Positions 32,795 through 40,085 of a stretch of DNA of 64,000 nucleotides are shown here, in pieces. The position numbers and the translations under genes were made by a program. Origin of the DNA: Alicyclobacillus pomorum DSM 14955 (GTDB taxonomy: Bacteria > Bacillota > Bacilli > Alicyclobacillales > Alicyclobacillaceae); the NCBI RefSeq assembly GCF_000472905.1, contig NZ_AXAR01000013.1:253-64252 (forward strand), given 5' to 3'. Below the pieces are notes generated by a model. It ran no database searches, had not been told where the DNA came from, and worked only from the letters and a program-made list of their open reading frames with translations. Each line of letters opens with the position of its first letter. Positions within the stretch are counted from its first letter, which is position 1.

Positions 32795-33649
32795 TCACAG
32801 TCCGGCGAAACGGCACAAATAGACTTCCTTCATGAATCCGCGCAGCGCGTTATACGTTCGCTGTGCAACACTGCGCGTCGGAAAGAGTGTAAATAACGTG
32901 GGGCCGCTCCCAGACATATACACCGGTTGACCTGTGACGGCGGTCATTCGGGCGTACAGTGCCTCTACTTCGGGGTACAGCCGAAACGTGGTGGCCATCA
33001 ATGCATTGGTATACGCGTTGCGAACCCCTGCAAAATCGCAGTGTTGCAGCGCGTGCACCATCTTGGGGCTGGCGACGGTCCTCGCGTATTGCTCCGGGCG
33101 CGTCGCCTTATACACGTCTGCCGTAGAGACAAACACAGGCGGGCGGGTCAGCACGACCCACGCGCGCAATTCGTGCTGGACGCGCGCAATGTTCTCCCCT
33201 CGACCGGTGGCCACGGCGCAGCCGCCGTACACGCAGAACGGCACATCCGATCCGATGGATGCGCCCATCTGAGCCAGCTCATCCAAGCTGTAGCCGGTTC
33301 GCCACAGGCGGTTCAATCCTCTGAGAACCGCCGCAGCGTCTGCGGACCCGCCGGCCAACCCCGCCGCAACTGGAATGTGTTTTTCAATTTTCATGTGCAA
33401 GCCACGCAGAATTCCGCTCTGTTGCTGAAACACTTTGGCTGCAACGACAGCCAAGTTCCGGTGATCTAACGGGATGTGAGGGGCTGTCGAATCGACGACA
33501 ATGTCGCGACCGTCTGTTTCCTCCAACCAAATCAAGTCCGATAAATCGACGGTTTGCATCACCATGTCCACGTCGTGGAACCCGTCAGGTCGTTTGCCGA
33601 GAATATCCAGCGTTAAATTAATCTTTGCGTATGCACGTTCTACCAACAC
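32795..33649 (-). CDS. ispE: 4-diphosphocytidyl-2-C-methyl-D-erythritol kinase
   Basis: GHMP kinase of the MEP isoprenoid pathway. 284 residues with AYAKINLTLDILGKRPDGFH at the N-terminus and the ATP loop PVAAGLAGGSADAAA (about residue 95). GTG at 33649 has AGGTGG 5 bp upstream; GTG at 33658 is open too. In B. subtilis ispE is preceded by sspF; here the cyanophycin genes lie in between. Confidence 0.95.
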   Translation of the reverse strand: MLVERAYAKINLTLDILGKRPDGFHDVDMVMQTVDLSDLIWLEETDGRDIVVDSTAPHIPLDHRNLAVVAAKVFQQQSGILRGLHMKIEKHIPVAAGLAGGSADAAAVLRGLNRLWRTGYSLDELAQMGASIGSDVPFCVYGGCAVATGRGENIARVQHELRAWVVLTRPPVFVSTADVYKATRPEQYARTVASPKMVHALQHCDFAGVRNAYTNALMATTFRLYPEVEALYARMTAVTGQPVYMSGSGPTLFTLFPTRSVAQRTYNALRGFMKEVYLCRFAGL

Positions 33650-33815
33650 AGCTTCCACCTCAACTCACATCATCATCCCAGACCGTCATTCGCGACGCAA
33701 CCCCATACCTGAGGAGTCAAGGCCATTTCGAATGGTGGCGCCGCGAATGACACAGTCGAGAGACACAGTGATGCTTACGGAAGTGACAATCCCTCCGTCA
33801 AGGGGAACTTCAACC

Positions 33816-36458
33816 TCACTTGATGGCTGTGCTGGGAGCGACGGGTACAGCAATGTGGGGGACGCGCACCCCCCCGATGTCCGCAAGCAGATCTTGCGCT
33901 GGTGCAAGTTTCTCGTAAAACATGACGACGACGTCTCCTGGCAGCGTTTGTTCTACAGCGAAGCGCAGCGCTTCGACTTCGTCGGAGACGGAGGTACACA
34001 TTTTTTCTGGCCGCCGGGCCCGAATTTGATCTGCCATCAGTGCAGCGACTTCTCCCGGTTGGCGCCCCCGTTTATCGCGGTCTTCCTTCACCACAAGCAC
34101 GTCGAACACCTCTGCCAACACATCGGCCCCTTGCCGAATCACGACATCAGACCGATCTCCTGGAACACCGACCACCCCCATCAAACGACGATGAGGCACG
34201 TTCCGAAGCCAAGAGCCAACCTGCTTGAATCCGTCTGGGTTGTGTCCGTAATCAAGCACAACGTGGCTGCCGTTCTGCATGCGGTAGACCGAACAGCGTC
34301 CGGGGTTGTGTACACTAGGGATAAACGAAGTCAGCCCTTCTGCCACCTGTTGGCGAGTACACCCCAAGGCTCGGAGCGCGGCAATGGCTGCGAGGCAGTT
34401 TTCCACCTGAAACCGAACCGTTCCGTGCCCCGTCAAGGGCACCTCGGCGACAGCAGCAACCTGCCACGTCAAATTTCCCCGCGCCTCCACGAACCAACCA
34501 TCCGCGACGTAGTAGCCGACACCGCCGCAGGCCAGGTGTCTGGCCAGCACTGGATGATCTTGTGCCGGCGCGAAGTAAGCCACCCGCGCCTTCACTTTGC
34601 GGCTGAGGTCAACCAGGTGCGGATCTGCCGCGTTGAGAACAACCACACCATCTTCCCACACACACTCTGCGACGAGGGACTTGATGTGCAGCAGATCTTC
34701 CAGCGTGTCCACGCAGTCCTGTCCGAGGTGATCCACGGTGATGTTGGTGAGCACGGCGACATTTGCTTTGTCGTAGGCAAGCCCACCGCGGACGATGCCA
34801 CCCCGCGCAGTCTCGAGCACCGCCACGTCCACCGACGGATCGGACAGAACCATGCGAGCACTGGCAGGCCCCGTGGTGTCTCCTTCCGCAACCTGCTCAT
34901 TCGCAATCCAGACGCCACCAGTGGTGGTCATTCCGACCGTTTTTCCAGTGCTCTGCAAGGCATGTCCAATGAGCCGTGTTGTGGTCGTTTTGCCGTTGGT
35001 TCCAGTAATGGATACAATCGGAATCCGCCCATTTCCCTGCGGAAACAACGAACGGACAATGGCCTCTGCAGCCTGCCGCGGCAATCCGTGTGAAGGATGT
35101 TCATGCATGCGGATGCCTGGGGCCGCGTTCACTTCAATGACCGTCGATTGCCCCGGATGGTACGGTAACACCGGGTTCGCGATGACCATGTCAATGCCGC
35201 AGACGTCCAGCCCGACCACCGCCGCCGTACGCTCTGCCAATCGCTGATACGTAGGATGAATTTCGTCGGTGACGTCAATCGCTTCACCACCGGTGGATAA
35301 ATTCGCGTTGTTGCGCAGCATCACGACCGTGCCTGCAGAAGGAATGTGGTCCAGGGTGAAATTCTGACGGCGCAACGTAGCTTCCACGACCGGGTCCACG
35401 ACGATTTTGGTCAACGGCTTTTCGTGGCCATCGCCACGCAGTGGATTACGGTTGACTTCCTCAATCAGCTCGCGGATGCATCTCCGGCCGTCTCCGCAGA
35501 CACGTGCTGGCAGCCGTTCACTCGCGGCGACAAATTGTCCAGCGACCACGAGCAGCCGGATGTTCCTCCCCTGCACGTACTGCTCCACAATCACCTTTTC
35601 CGAAAACCGGGCCGCAATTTGATATGCTTCCCTGACATCCTCAGGTGTACAGAGATTCAGACTGACGCCACGTCCCTGATTCCCGTTGTACGGCTTGACG
35701 ACGACAGGCGCGCCAATCGCCTCCAACTGCTCCACCGCCTCTTCAGCTGAATGGGCAACACCGCCAGCCGGCACAGGAATCCCGGCATCCTGTAGGACTT
35801 GCTTGGTTAATTCCTTGTCACAGGCGATATCAACGGCAACAGCGGACGTATTTTCGGTAATGGTCGCTTCAACCCGCTTCCGGTGTCGGCCGTAACCGAG
35901 CTGAATCAAGCTGCCGTCACTGACGCGCCGAACCGGGATTTGGCGCTGCAGTGCGACGTCAACGATGGCTTGCGTGCTTGGCCCCAGCTGAGTTCTAGCG
36001 AGTTGTTTCGATGCGTTGTCCATCACGTCCGACACCACAGGCGCCTTGCCGGACAGCAGGCATTCCACGATGTCAGCAGCAGCCTCGAGCAGATATTTCT
36101 GCACGGGATACGCTTTGCATTCCACCACAATGTCGTACTGGCCGATACCGCCAGCGTACAGCGTCTTTCCGTAGTGCACGTCAAGGCCCACACAGCAGGC
36201 AAGCTCAATGGCCAAGTGTTCCACGATGTGACCGAAATAGGTCCCGCCGTACAACCGCTCGACAAAACCACCGGGCTCTCCCTTCGCGCAGTGGTGCTCG
36301 CGAAGTCCTGGAAACAAGCGCAGTAGGCGGTCCGCAAAACCTGGAAATTCGTAACTTTCGCGCTCTGACAAATGCTGTAAGTCCACACGAGCAACCATGA
36401 CAGGCTTGTAGATATACACGTTCGGGCCGTCGATATGGCGTACCGAAAGGATTTTCAT
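33816..36458 (-). CDS. cphA: Cyanophycin synthetase
   Basis: Polymerises aspartate and arginine into the storage polymer cyanophycin. The 880-residue protein has the CphA N-terminal domain (ILSVRHIDGPNVYIYKPVM at the start), an ATP-grasp domain (about 220-470) that adds aspartate, and a Mur-ligase-like domain (SITGTNGKTTTTRLIG, about 490, to the end) that adds arginine. AAGGAG precedes the ATG. It follows cphB by 17 bp, so synthetase and degrading enzyme are one operon. Full length for CphA1. Unusual for a Bacilli core region. Confidence 0.94.
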   Translation of the reverse strand: MKILSVRHIDGPNVYIYKPVMVARVDLQHLSERESYEFPGFADRLLRLFPGLREHHCAKGEPGGFVERLYGGTYFGHIVEHLAIELACCVGLDVHYGKTLYAGGIGQYDIVVECKAYPVQKYLLEAAADIVECLLSGKAPVVSDVMDNASKQLARTQLGPSTQAIVDVALQRQIPVRRVSDGSLIQLGYGRHRKRVEATITENTSAVAVDIACDKELTKQVLQDAGIPVPAGGVAHSAEEAVEQLEAIGAPVVVKPYNGNQGRGVSLNLCTPEDVREAYQIAARFSEKVIVEQYVQGRNIRLLVVAGQFVAASERLPARVCGDGRRCIRELIEEVNRNPLRGDGHEKPLTKIVVDPVVEATLRRQNFTLDHIPSAGTVVMLRNNANLSTGGEAIDVTDEIHPTYQRLAERTAAVVGLDVCGIDMVIANPVLPYHPGQSTVIEVNAAPGIRMHEHPSHGLPRQAAEAIVRSLFPQGNGRIPIVSITGTNGKTTTTRLIGHALQSTGKTVGMTTTGGVWIANEQVAEGDTTGPASARMVLSDPSVDVAVLETARGGIVRGGLAYDKANVAVLTNITVDHLGQDCVDTLEDLLHIKSLVAECVWEDGVVVLNAADPHLVDLSRKVKARVAYFAPAQDHPVLARHLACGGVGYYVADGWFVEARGNLTWQVAAVAEVPLTGHGTVRFQVENCLAAIAALRALGCTRQQVAEGLTSFIPSVHNPGRCSVYRMQNGSHVVLDYGHNPDGFKQVGSWLRNVPHRRLMGVVGVPGDRSDVVIRQGADVLAEVFDVLVVKEDRDKRGRQPGEVAALMADQIRARRPEKMCTSVSDEVEALRFAVEQTLPGDVVVMFYEKLAPAQDLLADIGGVRVPHIAVPVAPSTAIK

Positions 36459-36475
36459 ATTGTCAGCTCCTTGCT

Positions 36476-37297
36476 TCAGCTCGATTCCCAGCGTCCCCAG
36501 TCCGTGATGGGCTCCCGTTTGCGCAAGTGAAATCCGTACCCTTCAGGGAGAATGTGCAGTTTGACACCGCACAGTGCCAGGGATTCGTCTTTTCGTACGC
36601 GCTCCAAATTACTATGTGCAAGCGCACCTGCGTCCACGACGCTTACGGCGCCACTGCCAATCACGCGCATCGCTTCACCTTGGACAACCACCGCTGTGTC
36701 TTCGTCCAATCCGAGACCGAGGTGGTGCGGGTATTGAGCCACCGCGGACAGAAGCCGACCAAGCCGACCGCGTTGGGCAAAATGTTGATCAATGACAACA
36801 CCATCCACAAACTCCATGCCGGGCGCCATCTGGACAACGCTGATGCGGGGATTGGTTTCCGCCTCCCCGTCTACAATCATCGTGCTGGACATCATCGAAG
36901 CACCTGCGCTGGTTCCACCGAGTGGAATGCCTTGCCCAAGGGCGTCGTGAAGCGCGGAATCAATTCTGGTTCCACCCAACAGTTTGGTGATTCGGAGTTG
37001 ATCCCCGCCTGTGAAAAAAATACACGTTGCATCGCGAACAAACTGAACCGCACTGTCTCTGTCTGCTGCCTTTCGGTCCGAGACATCGAAGGTGCGAACA
37101 TCCTCGGCTCCGAGGCGTTTAAATATCTCGACGTAATCCATTCCGACCTCAATGGGAAGTTCGGTGGCGACCGTCATGACCAGAACTCTTGCAGCCGTGC
37201 CCCCGCCAAGCCGCAAGAATTCACGGAGTATCCTGCACTCGCCTGTCTTGTCCTCAGCCCCGCCAATGATAATTAACGGGCCAGGCTCACCTCGCAA
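36476..37297 (-). CDS. cphB: Cyanophycinase
   Basis: Serine-type exopeptidase of the S51 family that releases beta-Asp-Arg dipeptides from cyanophycin. 273 residues with IIIGGAEDK at the start and the catalytic serine in GGTSAGASMMS (about residue 135), plus the histidine of VIDQHFAQRGR. TTG at 37297 is preferred (GAGGTGG 6 bp upstream, normal length); an open frame reaches 37423 but has no Shine-Dalgarno. Upstream lie two copies of the GATTTGCAAAAT-type motif. Confidence 0.92.
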   Translation of the reverse strand: MRGEPGPLIIIGGAEDKTGECRILREFLRLGGGTAARVLVMTVATELPIEVGMDYVEIFKRLGAEDVRTFDVSDRKAADRDSAVQFVRDATCIFFTGGDQLRITKLLGGTRIDSALHDALGQGIPLGGTSAGASMMSSTMIVDGEAETNPRISVVQMAPGMEFVDGVVIDQHFAQRGRLGRLLSAVAQYPHHLGLGLDEDTAVVVQGEAMRVIGSGAVSVVDAGALAHSNLERVRKDESLALCGVKLHILPEGYGFHLRKREPITDWGRWESS

Positions 37298-37358
37298 GGG
37301 TGTCCACCTCGCTTTTTTGTCAAGCCTCTCTCGAATCTGCTGTCGAGTTGACATGAGC

Positions 37359-37426: not shown

Positions 37427-37496
37427 GCTGACATGGATGTGTAAAAATCGAGCTTAGCGTGTCCTGCGACGTTCACCCGTATGCGTCGAAAAACGT

Positions 37497-37520
37497 GAAA
37501 AGCCGGGGGTTCCCCCGGCT
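37497..37520 (-). terminator. Terminator after sspF
   Basis: AGCCGGGGG (37501-37509) pairs with CCCCCGGCT (37512-37520); TTTT follows on the minus strand. 22 bp past the sspF stop. Confidence 0.75.
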
Positions 37521-37541: not shown

Positions 37542-37727
37542 TCAGTTCGGTCGTTGTTGTTCTGCCAACGCGCGTTCGGCGATTTCGATGGCTCGTTTCA
37601 CCATGTTCCCGGCATCGCGAGTGGTGATACCTCCCCATCCCTCGCGTTGCACAGTGTCATAGAACCCAAGTTCTTTAGCCAGCTCGTACTTGAATTCCTC
37701 GGACATGATTCCACGTCTTCTTCCCAT
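37542..37727 (-). CDS. sspF: Small acid-soluble spore protein, SspF type
   Basis: 61-residue alpha/beta-type [24 protein letters not shown] at the start, then [14 protein letters not shown] and [15 protein letters not shown]. These proteins coat and protect spore DNA; SspF is the divergent member. AAGGAGG lies 9 bp before the ATG. Located next to veg as in B. subtilis. A clear sigma G promoter was not found in the 110 bp upstream. Confidence 0.94.
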
Positions 37728-37840
37728 CACTCAACGCCTCCTTCGCATGGACGGCCATACCTAGCGTTGCACCGCACAGGCAATGAAACACAGGAATATT
37801 TTTCTTCTCTCGCGAAATTCTCACGAAGTTCCTGAACAAC

Positions 37841-37891: not shown

Positions 37892-38167
37892 TTACACTTG
37901 TGTATAAGTAATCCGAACATTGTCTCCATCGCGGCAAACCATCAGTTCAACCGTTTCGGTCAACACGTCCGCATAACTGTAAGAAACACGTTTGAATGTA
38001 CCGTCCGGCGGGTCAAGTTTCACGACGAACACAGAAGGATATGTCTCTTCTAGAACCCCCGTGCGTTCGACAGTCTTCCTCCGACCACCGTTTGCCCGTA
38101 GAAGGACTTTTTCCCCGATGAGTCCATCGAGGCTTCTTTTAATCTCGTGGAGCGCATTTCTTGTCAA
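37892..38167 (-). CDS. veg: Veg protein
   Basis: 91-residue conserved Firmicutes protein with the signature stretches [29 protein letters not shown] and [10 protein letters not shown]. In B. subtilis Veg stimulates biofilm genes through SinR and is expressed from a very strong promoter. The TTG at 38167 (AGAGGTGG 6 bp upstream) fits the family start; a GTG one codon earlier is possible. Tandem sigma A promoters precede it. Confidence 0.93.
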
Positions 38168-38192
38168 CACACACCACCTCTTTCCAAAAGCC

Positions 38193-38222
38193 ATTGTAAC
38201 ACAGAAAAGAGGCATGTGTCAA
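38193..38222 (-). promoter_or_regulatory. veg promoter, proximal
   Basis: Minus-strand TTGACA (38217-38222), 18-bp spacer, TACAAT (38193-38198), about 30 bp upstream of the start codon. Confidence 0.72.
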
Positions 38223-38325: not shown

Positions 38326-39186
38326 TCAGTATAGTGATTTCGGTAACCCGAGTCGGTACTTTCCGCGGGATTCCAGGCCGCCAATCCCGTCGGTGCCCGT
38401 GTACGTAGAGCGAATGACGTCGTACACATTGACCGTGTCGTTAATCGGGGTGAACGCCACTTTTTCTGCGATGAAGACCGGATCGAGCGCGTGAATCATG
38501 ATTCGCTGTGGAGAACTCGCGAAGTTGGCGCCGGCGTCCAGGATGGCCTCAAAGTGGGATTGGCATGCCCCAGCAATAATCACAAGGTCGTCCATGTTCC
38601 GAGAGTGCTTCCGTGCATTCTGCACCGTCTTCACGAAATACCCGGAGTTGCGGTAGTTAAACAGATCTGTCCAGGATTTCCCTTTTCGAATGAGACCATC
38701 GTGCCCTGTGATAATCAAAATGTCCGGCTCATACTGTTCCAACAGCCCCTTTACCGATGTAGGCATGTCGGCTTCTCGCATTTGTTGTCCAATCGCCCGG
38801 ATGCCCAGTTCCTTGTACATGTTCAAACACTTCTGTAGGTAGGTGCCGTCTCCGTCCAAGTGCAGAACCTGTCCGGGCCGCTCAAAAAAATCAGGATCCG
38901 AGTGAAATCTGGCCTCCTTTCGCAGTGATCTTTTCTCAGACTCTATCGCTCGGCGCGATTGCACCAACCGCAGGCACTCGTCCTCGACGTGTTTGCGATT
39001 CTTCTCGAATCGCTGCCATTCTTCGTCCGTCAACTGCTCCAAATCGGAAAACGGAGCATCCGCCATCAAACGGACGTCAATCCCTTTGAGGATGGCTGTC
39101 TCAGACGTCGTATCCACTTCGACAATGACGAAGCACAGATCTTTTCCATACGATTTGCGAGTCACCACGTCCCCGGATTTCCACAA
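38326..39186 (-). CDS. yabG: Sporulation-specific protease YabG
   Basis: 286-residue cysteine-type protease that processes spore coat proteins. Conserved stretches include GQVLHLDGDGTYLQKCLNMY, PDILIITGHDG, the candidate catalytic cysteine in IIAGACQSHFEAI and ASSPQRIMIHALDPV. The TTG at 39186 (GAGGGGGA 8 bp upstream) gives the family-like start LWKSGDVVTRKSYGKD; the frame extends further up into the divergent glycosyltransferase gene. A sigma K-type promoter is at 39222-39250. Confidence 0.93.
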   Translation of the reverse strand: MWKSGDVVTRKSYGKDLCFVIVEVDTTSETAILKGIDVRLMADAPFSDLEQLTDEEWQRFEKNRKHVEDECLRLVQSRRAIESEKRSLRKEARFHSDPDFFERPGQVLHLDGDGTYLQKCLNMYKELGIRAIGQQMREADMPTSVKGLLEQYEPDILIITGHDGLIRKGKSWTDLFNYRNSGYFVKTVQNARKHSRNMDDLVIIAGACQSHFEAILDAGANFASSPQRIMIHALDPVFIAEKVAFTPINDTVNVYDVIRSTYTGTDGIGGLESRGKYRLGLPKSLY

Positions 39187-39221
39187 GGCCACATCCCCCT
39201 CTTCTGAGGCAGTTACACCCC

Positions 39222-39250
39222 TAGCATATGGCCCGGAGCAAACTGGCGTG
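39222..39250 (-). promoter_or_regulatory. Sigma K-type promoter of yabG
   Basis: Minus-strand CACG (39247-39250), 16 bp, CATATGCTA (39222-39230), fitting mACm-N16-CATAnnnTA except the last -35 base. B. subtilis yabG is sigma K controlled. Confidence 0.5.
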
Positions 39251-39269
39251 ACGATGGGAGGTGTGGGGA

Positions 39270-40085
39270 ATGATGGAAGGAAGGAACTTCGTGTGTGCCA
39301 TTGTCTCCGCGAGCAATGAAGCAAGTACCATTGAAAACGTCTTGCACCAGTTGTACCGAGCGCGAGTGGACACTTGCGTGCTGGTGGTGAACGGGACGCG
39401 CGACCAAACTTTACACATTGCCCAGCGCTGTGCAAGTCGATTGCAGTTACCCCTGCACGTTCAATTGTTCTCCGATGCACTCGGACCGGACGTGGCTAAA
39501 GCAACAGGAACGTTCGAGGCACTGCGCGTCCATCCAACCGTAGAACAGCTGGTGTACGTGGACGGCGACTGGAAGGGTAGCTTTGGCCCGATGCTGCGGG
39601 ATTTCATTGACGAAGGCATAGAAACAGGCTGTGATTGTATGTGGACGCGGCACACCGGTCCCCTACGGGAGGATATCGCGTTGTGGCAGAACGTGTTGCA
39701 ACAAGTGGCGCCGCATCTTGTAGATGCAGCGCCCGCGCAATCTCCACTGTACATTCGCCGTTCCCTGTTGCAGTTCCTCTCCCCCACCAGTTTGCACCAC
39801 CCGGGGCTCTGGATGGCCGAGGCGGCCTCCTTCCTTCAGCCCGCATTGCACCTCTCTACGAGTGCCTTGTGGGATGTGAGATTTGCTGGCAATCCTGTCC
39901 GCAGCGCGCTGCACCAGTCTCTCATGGCAGACACCCTCATTGGGGACGCCCTGGAGGGCTGCCGTATTCTGCTGGAACAGCGCCCATCTCGGGAGTGGCG
40001 CGGCAGACGGTACGACGGCCTTCACCTGCGTCGCAGGACGGACCTGTTGGAGGCGGTGGCCGCCGTTGTCCGTTGGAGGACATAA
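39270..40085 (+). CDS. Glycosyltransferase family 2-like protein
   Basis: 271 residues with a GT-A type N-terminal half: CAIVSASNEASTIENVLHQL, then VLVVNGTRD and a DXD-like metal site in VYVDGDWKGS (about residue 95). No membrane helix and no signal peptide. GGAGGTG precedes the ATG at 39270. It diverges from yabG, shares an 83-bp spacer with it, and converges on the YkuK-like gene. Donor and acceptor unknown. A role in spore or envelope saccharides is only suggested by context. Confidence 0.75.
   Translation: MMEGRNFVCAIVSASNEASTIENVLHQLYRARVDTCVLVVNGTRDQTLHIAQRCASRLQLPLHVQLFSDALGPDVAKATGTFEALRVHPTVEQLVYVDGDWKGSFGPMLRDFIDEGIETGCDCMWTRHTGPLREDIALWQNVLQQVAPHLVDAAPAQSPLYIRRSLLQFLSPTSLHHPGLWMAEAASFLQPALHLSTSALWDVRFAGNPVRSALHQSLMADTLIGDALEGCRILLEQRPSREWRGRRYDGLHLRRRTDLLEAVAAVVRWRT

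Follow-up and report, generated by a model that had tools for sequence, protein, structure and literature searches.

Most work on cyanophycin concerns its role as a storage polymer in cyanobacteria. A forespore-made amino-acid store that is mobilised at germination is familiar from the SASP/GPR system of Bacillus, in which SASP also protects DNA; that bank is protein, whereas cyanophycin is made without ribosomes. The developmental control of akinetes, the dormant cells of cyanobacteria, differs from that of endospores. We know of one published mutant only that bears on cyanophycin in Firmicutes, in Clostridium perfringens, where Liu et al. (2016, J Bacteriol) reportedly obtained fewer and smaller spores from a cphA mutant and are said to have found cyanophycinase in germinated spores only; to our knowledge, that study contained neither a promoter analysis nor a cross-phylum comparison.

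Like the C. perfringens pair, which is implicated in spore assembly, the genes considered here are the cphA and cphB of a spore-former. They lie in a window of 64,000 nucleotides, the whole stretch of DNA analysed, from Alicyclobacillus pomorum DSM 14955; unlike C. perfringens, this is a Bacilli genome, and the upstream gene is a SASP gene in place of SipL. The available passages of PMC5532821 and PMC13241827 cite the 2016 C. perfringens work on cphA and cphB, and PMC6174930, in the portion available, apparently describes the same spore-assembly study. In segmented filamentous bacteria, cphAB adjoin ispE as well as a ger operon, and a use in germination has been proposed from this position (PMC9482736); these are Clostridia, and the case was argued, in the accessible text, without promoter evidence, whereas the window is from Bacilli and a motif was found. 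For C. ljungdahlii, the authors place cphB within induced sporulation genes and describe putative granules in growing cells; in the sections available, the gene is discussed mainly as a stress-time arginine supply and its promoter is not analysed (PMC13241827). Akinetes store cyanophycin, according to an excerpt of PMC4586427; they resemble the proposed spore reserve in holding an Arg-Asp polymer in a dormant cell and differ in not being endospores. No published sigma-F link for cyanophycin genes was found in the open-licence PMC literature. A spore role for cyanophycin is already published for C. perfringens; what is new here is a sigma-F-type motif upstream of cphB.

The cphBA locus and its conservation

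The locus contains the following features, given in the direction of transcription.

38326..39480, minus strand: yabG, sporulation peptidase (TIGR02855, 365.5 bits; PF05582)
37892..38215, minus strand: veg (NF046033, PF06257)
37542..37730, minus strand: SASP gene, alpha/beta type, upstream neighbour (PF00269, E 7.1e-08)
37501..37520, minus strand: G+C-rich stem-loop between SASP and cphB, read in the sequence and missing from the terminator scan
37455..37484, minus strand: predicted forespore promoter of cphBA, sigma-F type, GCATA-N15-GGACACGCTA
37304..37309, minus strand: AGGTGG, probable ribosome-binding site of cphB, read in the sequence 6 nt before TTG 37297
36476..37297, minus strand: cphB, cyanophycinase, 273 aa from TTG; alternative starts ATG 37354 and TTG 37423
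33816..36458, minus strand: cphA, cyanophycin synthetase 1, 880 aa; N domain, ATP-grasp and Mur-ligase domains
32795..33658, minus strand: ispE, downstream neighbour (TIGR00154, 276.3 bits)

Family models identify the cphA product as CphA1, with a predicted ability to synthesise the Asp-Arg polymer. The protein matches the CphA equivalog model TIGR02068 over its full length (residues 2-859, 1166.8 bits, cut-off 850), carries PF18921, PF08443 (ATP-grasp), PF08245 and PF02875 with both ligase halves intact, and aligns over residues 1-858 with the solved CphA 7lg5 (E 2.6e-212); GTNGKTTTT, the Mur-ligase motif, is present, and T485-T493 are invariant across 16 aligned rows. In the organism's own 3.4-Mb genome this is the sole full cphA; 11 further matches are partial and 27-34% identical, in keeping with the kinship of ATP-grasp and Mur-ligase proteins. 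CphB exceeds the TIGR02069 cut-off (307.7 against 126.6 bits) and matches the solved cyanophycinase 7uqv (phmmer, E 3.3e-75), with which its GTSAGAS aligns; we take the serine of this motif to be the catalytic nucleophile. The TTG start proposed in the earlier note is plausible, given the AGGTGG preceding it, and the 17-bp gap to cphA (36459-36475) suggests that the two genes are probably co-transcribed. The stem-loop is the probable terminator of the SASP transcript, and the true yabG start probably lies inside the ORF, whose similarity to the family starts only at residue 102. The arrangement described earlier, cphB and cphA between the SASP gene/veg and ispE, with purR also downstream, is borne out by family models and coordinates; in B. 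subtilis, SASP/veg and ispE presumably adjoin each other.

This placement recurs in relatives. The sample from the window's order comprised 54 genomes with cphA, with neighbours examined in 41 and 13 left out; cphB-cphA sit beside veg/SASP in all 41, with ispE at the locus in 40 and a contig end in the remaining one. Elsewhere in Bacilli, 15 of 18 examined loci show the same placement (G128, split over two contigs, was dropped). Of 68 Clostridia genomes, 17 have the cphBA-ispE arrangement, in most cases close to genes for SipL and SpoIIR (SipL, CotS, SpoIIR and Ger were identified in one representative per cluster), and it also occurs in one Syntrophomonadaceae and one Peptococcaceae record. 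In 51 of the 68 Clostridia genomes, ispE was not found within 5 kb of cphA; 53 Clostridia loci lack ispE, 4 of them with too little downstream DNA to tell. These neighbourhood counts rule out a chance location of cphBA. The search for cphBA at the same locus in related spore-formers, suggested by the earlier note, succeeded in Bacilli; the variable location that the note named as evidence against a spore role fails there, and is partly seen in Clostridia.

The Bacilli on-locus copies form one clade (36 rows, FastTree support 98), which rules out their recent horizontal insertion, and the locus state changes three times over the Firmicutes rows of the tree, which omits L207 (short), L225-L227, L057, L156 and every second non-Firmicutes locus. 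The off-locus Bacilli copy L139 falls within Clostridia in this tree, which suggests a transfer.

Gene position by itself is weak evidence, because the metG-to-mfd block is largely conserved in these genomes. Its conservation fits an account in which cphBA is a plain nitrogen store for growing cells and the gene order an old stable stretch without meaning for expression, as do the putative granules and cphB induction in C. ljungdahlii and the storage of assimilated nitrogen in cyanophycin predicted for a spore-forming Peptococcaceae strain (available parts of PMC13241827 and PMC4541261). We consider this account improbable. In the sampled genomes cphA occurs almost exclusively with sporulation markers, one being present in 114 of 115 Bacilli and Clostridia carriers. 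Fisher tests of cphA against spoIVA gave p=1.8e-7 in Bacilli and 9e-7 in Clostridia, values that ignore kinship and are descriptive only. Three Clostridia genomes (G378, G401 and G477) have cphA without spoIVA, and since all three have spoIIIAE, the missing spoIVA likely reflects assembly gaps. G044 has neither yabG nor SASP at the locus, with gpr, spoIIIAE and spoIIR (below the family cut-off) present. The one true exception, G297, has an off-locus cphA and neither spoIVA nor spoIIIAE.

The sigma-F-type motif upstream of cphB

The decisive addition to the argument from position is a conserved sigma-F-type motif upstream of cphB. With a panel of ten sigma factors, this motif was enriched in Bacilli at z=12.1 (n=37; L057, which has no anchor, was dropped), whereas sigma-A, B, H, E, K, D, W and L promoters gave z values of -0.6 to 1.3 and were rejected. 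Sigma-A itself reached z=0.3 in the same 37 regions, which counts against a growth reserve, as veg in the same loci has a perfect sigma-A promoter in 38 of 38 (z=35.5; 12/12 at 38264-38235 in the window). Further controls at the same locus were yabG (sigma-K, z=11.0) and SASP (sigma-G, z=6.9), and elsewhere the known sigma-F target spoIIR (sigma-F, z=12.3) and gpr (sigma-G, z=7.2), with 30 rows each; veg, yabG and spoIIR agree with known biology. The spoIIR control also scores on the sigma-B consensus (z=8.6), a sign that sigma-factor motifs overlap.

A sigma-F regex, composed after the upstream sequences had been seen, matched 25 of the 37 Bacilli regions against 0.3 in shuffles, leaving 12 without a match. 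The z values overstate certainty because the rows are related; with one row per genus, the match persisted in 16 of 22 (z=7.7), and flanks and spacer were only 25-27% alike, so recent kinship is no explanation for the motif. A profile was also trained on spoIIR, with 28 sites used and the low-scoring rows L247 and L254 left out; it ranked cphB first among 14 genes (p=1e-8) but failed on the SASP promoters, 0 of 36 exceeding the 95% level of the shuffles. Taken alone, the site in the window is weak and would not stand out: it has 10 of 12 consensus positions, the window holds no sigma-F site with at most one mismatch, and the spoIIR profile does not score 37455..37484 highest. Copies cannot be told apart by a single score, because the marker-less G297 also reaches 10/12 at its best site (L139 reaches 9 and L145 11, both likewise off-locus).

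The signal extends to Clostridia, both on-locus (z=9.3; 13 of 18 rows match 11 or all 12 positions) and off-locus, where most Clostridia copies lie (z=8.4; 21 of 51 rows, 30 lacking such a site). Its presence at off-locus copies is a further point against a growth reserve in an inert gene order. As the spoIIR-trained profile missed the Clostridia sites (AUC 0.58 and 0.50), this result rests on the sigma-F consensus. Non-Firmicutes cphB showed no sigma-F enrichment (z=1.6, 1 of 37), 25 of 62 such loci having given no usable upstream region. Among the off-locus Clostridia rows, upstream regions of cphA give as high a score as those of cphB (z=6.2 and 6.6), and a second perfect site (12/12) just upstream of cphA in eight loci accounts for part of this signal. 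A further idea is that the forespore promoter serves ispE by read-through, for an isoprenoid carrier of the cortex, with cphBA as passenger. The terminator scan, which also missed the SASP stem-loop, lists none between cphA and ispE, and ispE comes after cphA in 40 of the 41 order genomes examined; however, the Clostridia motif lies upstream of cphB even without ispE nearby, and the eight perfect sites adjoin cphA, which makes the idea highly improbable.

Possible roles of cyanophycin in the spore

Taken with the conserved locus, the motif, which we infer to be a working sigma-F promoter, supports the possible role in sporulation, germination or outgrowth raised earlier, and forespore expression of cphBA is strongly predicted. 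Our favoured reading, held with somewhat better than even confidence, is a developmental operon for forespore-made cyanophycin whose Asp and Arg are released later as nutrient. After asymmetric division, forespore RNA polymerase of the sigma-F type would start upstream of cphB, sigma-G perhaps keeping transcription on, and within the forespore CphA would join Asp and Arg into cyanophycin. Both amino acids would be freed again by CphB and by IadA, whose gene is unlinked, most likely at germination and outgrowth, alongside those from SASP breakdown. A hydrolase made together with the synthetase would need timing control, which counts against this model.

IadA (TIGR01975, isoaspartyl dipeptidase) exceeds the model's cut-off in 29 of 31 relatives, the organism's own copy lying at G000:C1:287724-288887, and IaaA (PF01112) was found in none of the 31. 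Part of the relatives carry a weaker sigma-F-like element upstream of iadA, which may share the promoter type of cphB. The Firmicutes dipeptidase for cyanophycin breakdown is called undiscovered in the available text of PMC10206079; IadA is a candidate for this second step in the window's order.

Placement and promoter would fit equally well if the forespore-made polymer served to build or pack the spore (its size, core filling or charge) and not as food, and the C. perfringens spore-assembly role, as cited in the accessible part of PMC5532821, agrees with this. The probable co-transcription of cphB and the presence of iadA in 29 of 31 would be needless for a purely structural polymer. Cyanophycinase in germinated spores only, as reportedly seen in 2016, also favours a reserve, and we regard a structural role as possible but rather unlikely. 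We infer that the polymer is made, in the forespore, and serves as nutrient.

Whether cphBA, with iadA in the window's order, was an ancestral sigma-F forespore programme beside ispE in the ancestor of Bacilli and Clostridia, missed because model spore-formers lost it, seems to us evenly balanced; we know of no common model spore-former with cphBA. If so, an Asp-Arg store produced independently of ribosomes would have been present in early endospores. With the conserved forespore-type promoter motif, what was a remark on gene position becomes directly testable in two large groups of bacteria. The location of cphBA among spore genes, together with this signal, suggests that many spores contain such a reserve or use it in their making, as an additional amino-acid store or building material that the usual models do not have.

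Conservation of the cyanophycin locus

CphA residues 1–858 align with solved synthetases (7lg5, E 2.6e-212) and CphB aligns with solved cyanophycinases (7uqv, E 3.3e-75). Profile matches bear out the arrangement described in the earlier note, with a 17-bp gap between cphB and cphA, a small acid-soluble spore protein (SASP) gene and veg upstream, and ispE downstream. The same-strand upstream genes also include yabG, purR lies downstream of cphA as well, and the genome holds one full cphA. A G+C-rich stem-loop just after the SASP gene, read from the sequence and absent from the terminator scan list, suggests that cphBA probably has its own promoter.

Features of the cyanophycin locus in the window
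36458..33816, (-): cphA, cyanophycin synthetase (TIGR02068, 1166.8 bits, cut-off 850)
ORF end 36476, (-): cphB, cyanophycinase (TIGR02069, 307.7 bits)
37484-37455, (-): predicted sigma-F-type site of cphBA, GCATA-N15-GGACACGCTA, 10/12 consensus positions
39261-40085, (+): 274-aa ORF between a ykuK-like gene and yabG, on the strand opposite to its neighbours

The 274-aa ORF has no match in Pfam or NCBIfam; same-orientation tblastn matches (25–46% identity) stand beside yabG at 12 of 20 loci from the order, every one in the organism's own family, and at 8 of 15 on-locus loci (cphBA in the same place) elsewhere in the class.

The earlier note had taken this placement to raise the possibility of a role in sporulation, germination or outgrowth, and the placement recurs in relatives. 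We detected cphA in 54 of the 61 relatives: 37/37 in the family (own genome counted), 17/18 in the rest of the order, where the single miss is a genome 73% complete, and 0/6 from other families. In each of the 41 genomes examined among these 54, veg or SASP precedes cphB-cphA, and ispE follows in 40, the remaining contig ending before that point. In a draw across the class, 47/299 genomes carry cphA, 19 of them outside the order; 15 of the 18 fetched from these 19 lie at the same locus, and three copies (L139, L145, L155; 40–42% identity) lie off-locus. Both genomes of one genus, g13 (loci L032 in G013, L034 and L050 in G023), have cphBA-ispE in place, with no SASP gene detected between veg and cphB. 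At locus L057 (G011:C1:2252524-2255156), cphA matched as two overlapping pieces (query 1–559 and 552–876), probably through a frameshift or sequencing error.

A sigma-F-type motif upstream of cphB

Side-by-side reading of the SASP-cphB gaps in Bacilli revealed a repeated pattern, GHATR-N14-16-GGNNANNNTR, which as a regular expression occurs in 25/37 cphB upstream regions, where dinucleotide shuffles average 0.3. Coding-strand matches lie upstream of 7/36 SASP and 1/35 yabG genes and in no row for 15 other block genes; on the opposite strand the pattern lies upstream of veg at 6/38 Bacilli loci. Because the expression was composed after viewing the sequences, we ran a panel of ten Bacillus sigma consensus pairs. 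The cphB regions (n=37) scored z=12.1 for sigma-F, 5.1 for sigma-G and 0.3 for sigma-A, and 16/37 matched at least 11/12 sigma-F positions (shuffles, 1.7%). Controls from the same loci gave the dependences expected of these genes, with perfect sigma-A matches at 38/38 veg regions, sigma-K z=11.0 for yabG and sigma-G z=6.9 for SASP; ispE showed no sigma-F signal. In the same genome group, the sigma-F target spoIIR reached z=12.3, yet also z=8.6 for sigma-B, and gpr gave sigma-G z=7.2. With one row per genus, cphB retained sigma-F z=7.7 and the expression 16/22 genera, with spacer and flanks merely 25–27% alike. The sigma-F-type motif and its distribution are facts of the sequence.

A profile trained solely on 28 spoIIR sites ranked cphB top of 14 genes (AUC 0.78, p=1e-8); it picked up no sites in Clostridia or in the SASP upstream regions and did not single out the window's own cphB site. 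That site matches 10/12 positions and no site in the whole window has one mismatch or fewer to the sigma-F consensus, so that the promoter call for A. pomorum rests on comparison. The GG in the cphB motif, set against difficile in the available text of PMC3789822, points to sigma-F.

Clostridia, the CphA tree and sporulation

In a Clostridia draw, cphA occurs in 68/293 genomes, from all of which loci were taken (70 in total). In 17/68 genomes ispE lies at most 5 kb from cphA on the same strand (on-locus); 4 of the other 53 loci have too little downstream DNA to judge. The fullest gene order is yabG-veg-sipL-cphB-cphA-ispE-ger-spoIIR. Among neighbour clusters, each named via one representative, SipL lies upstream of cphB at 16/70 loci (15 on-locus plus L227, the second contig of an on-locus genome), SpoIIR occurs at 16/70 and CotS at 11/70. 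Syntrophomonadaceae and Peptococcaceae records (L058, L122), which are not part of this draw, gave further examples; actinobacterial loci L059 and L061 lack such neighbours around cphA. Thirteen Clostridia loci (L158-L163, L170, L171, L175, L178, L182, L183, L225) carry a PF09924 lysyltransferase-like gene and a PF13527 GNAT gene downstream.

The sigma-F signal on the consensus panel extends to this class. On-locus cphB (18 rows, including L058 and L122) scored sigma-F z=9.3, with 13/18 at 11/12 or better, the element being mostly GTATA/GAATA-N14-GGnAAAAATA near -95; off-locus cphB (51 rows, including L120) scored z=8.4, with 21/51 at 11 or more. Neighbouring genes stayed at z ≤3.5, save the region upstream of off-locus cphA (z=6.2), where eight loci (L165, L167, L173, L180, L190, L194, L200, L205) have a perfect 12/12 match 72–106 nt before the cphA ORF start. 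Non-Firmicutes cphB (n=37) gave z=1.6.

In a FastTree phylogeny of CphA (139 rows), Bacilli on-locus proteins form one clade (support 98), other on-locus rows fall in three places, some poorly supported, and the Firmicutes rows show 3 changes of locus state. Most simply read, the cphBA position would be old and left several times, in a tree that does not separate gain from loss. The CphA proteins of Actinomadura and Actinoplanes (L059, L072) sit beside the Bacilli on-locus clade in the tree, a hint of transfer between the two groups.

The sporulation marker spoIVA exceeds its cut-off in 206/299 Bacilli and 218/293 Clostridia genomes, and in 46/47 and 65/68 of those with cphA; the three Clostridia genomes without it have spoIIIAE, giving a marker in 114/115 cphA genomes. 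Fisher tests of cphA vs spoIVA were uncorrected and, because of kinship among genomes, are descriptive only. The exception, G297, has neither marker and an off-locus cphA; its best sigma-F site (10/12) is no worse than the window's. Vegetative storage as the main role of cphBA is unlikely, though the available text of PMC13241827 describes putative granules in growing C. ljungdahlii, where polymer extraction failed; the same text also remarks on a spore link.

Breakdown and a proposed role in the spore

According to the available text of PMC10206079, cyanophycinase is present in all 179 Firmicutes CphA1 genomes surveyed and IadA or IaaA in just 10.1%, the Firmicutes dipeptidase being termed undiscovered. 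Among 31 genomes of the order, IadA exceeded its cut-off in 29 and IaaA in none. The iadA gene is unlinked to cphBA; across the own-genome copy (L290, G000:C1:287000-291000) and 21 relatives, part of the loci have a sigma-F-like element, which in the own genome is GTTTG-N15-GGAAACACTG, shortly ahead of the ribosome-binding site. The 22 upstream regions scored sigma-F z=5.2; within 140 nt, 10/22 match at least 10/12 positions (shuffles, 7.6%) and 4/22 at least 11 (0.34%). IadA could equally serve isoaspartyl-damage repair in spore proteins.

The cphA and cphB enzymes are already known. The main rival to release at germination or outgrowth is a building role for cyanophycin in spore assembly, which has published support from C. 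perfringens; Liu 2016 reportedly described a spore link there in favour of this role. The available text of PMC5532821 cites that work for spore assembly, and that of PMC9482736 suggests a spore link in segmented filamentous bacteria. Our searches of the open-licence literature listed no report of a forespore promoter of cphBA or its conservation. Our best reading, in which the polymer, its compartment and its use are what we infer, is that cyanophycin would be made in the forespore from a sigma-F promoter, and that CphB and IadA would free Asp and Arg when the spore germinates or grows out.
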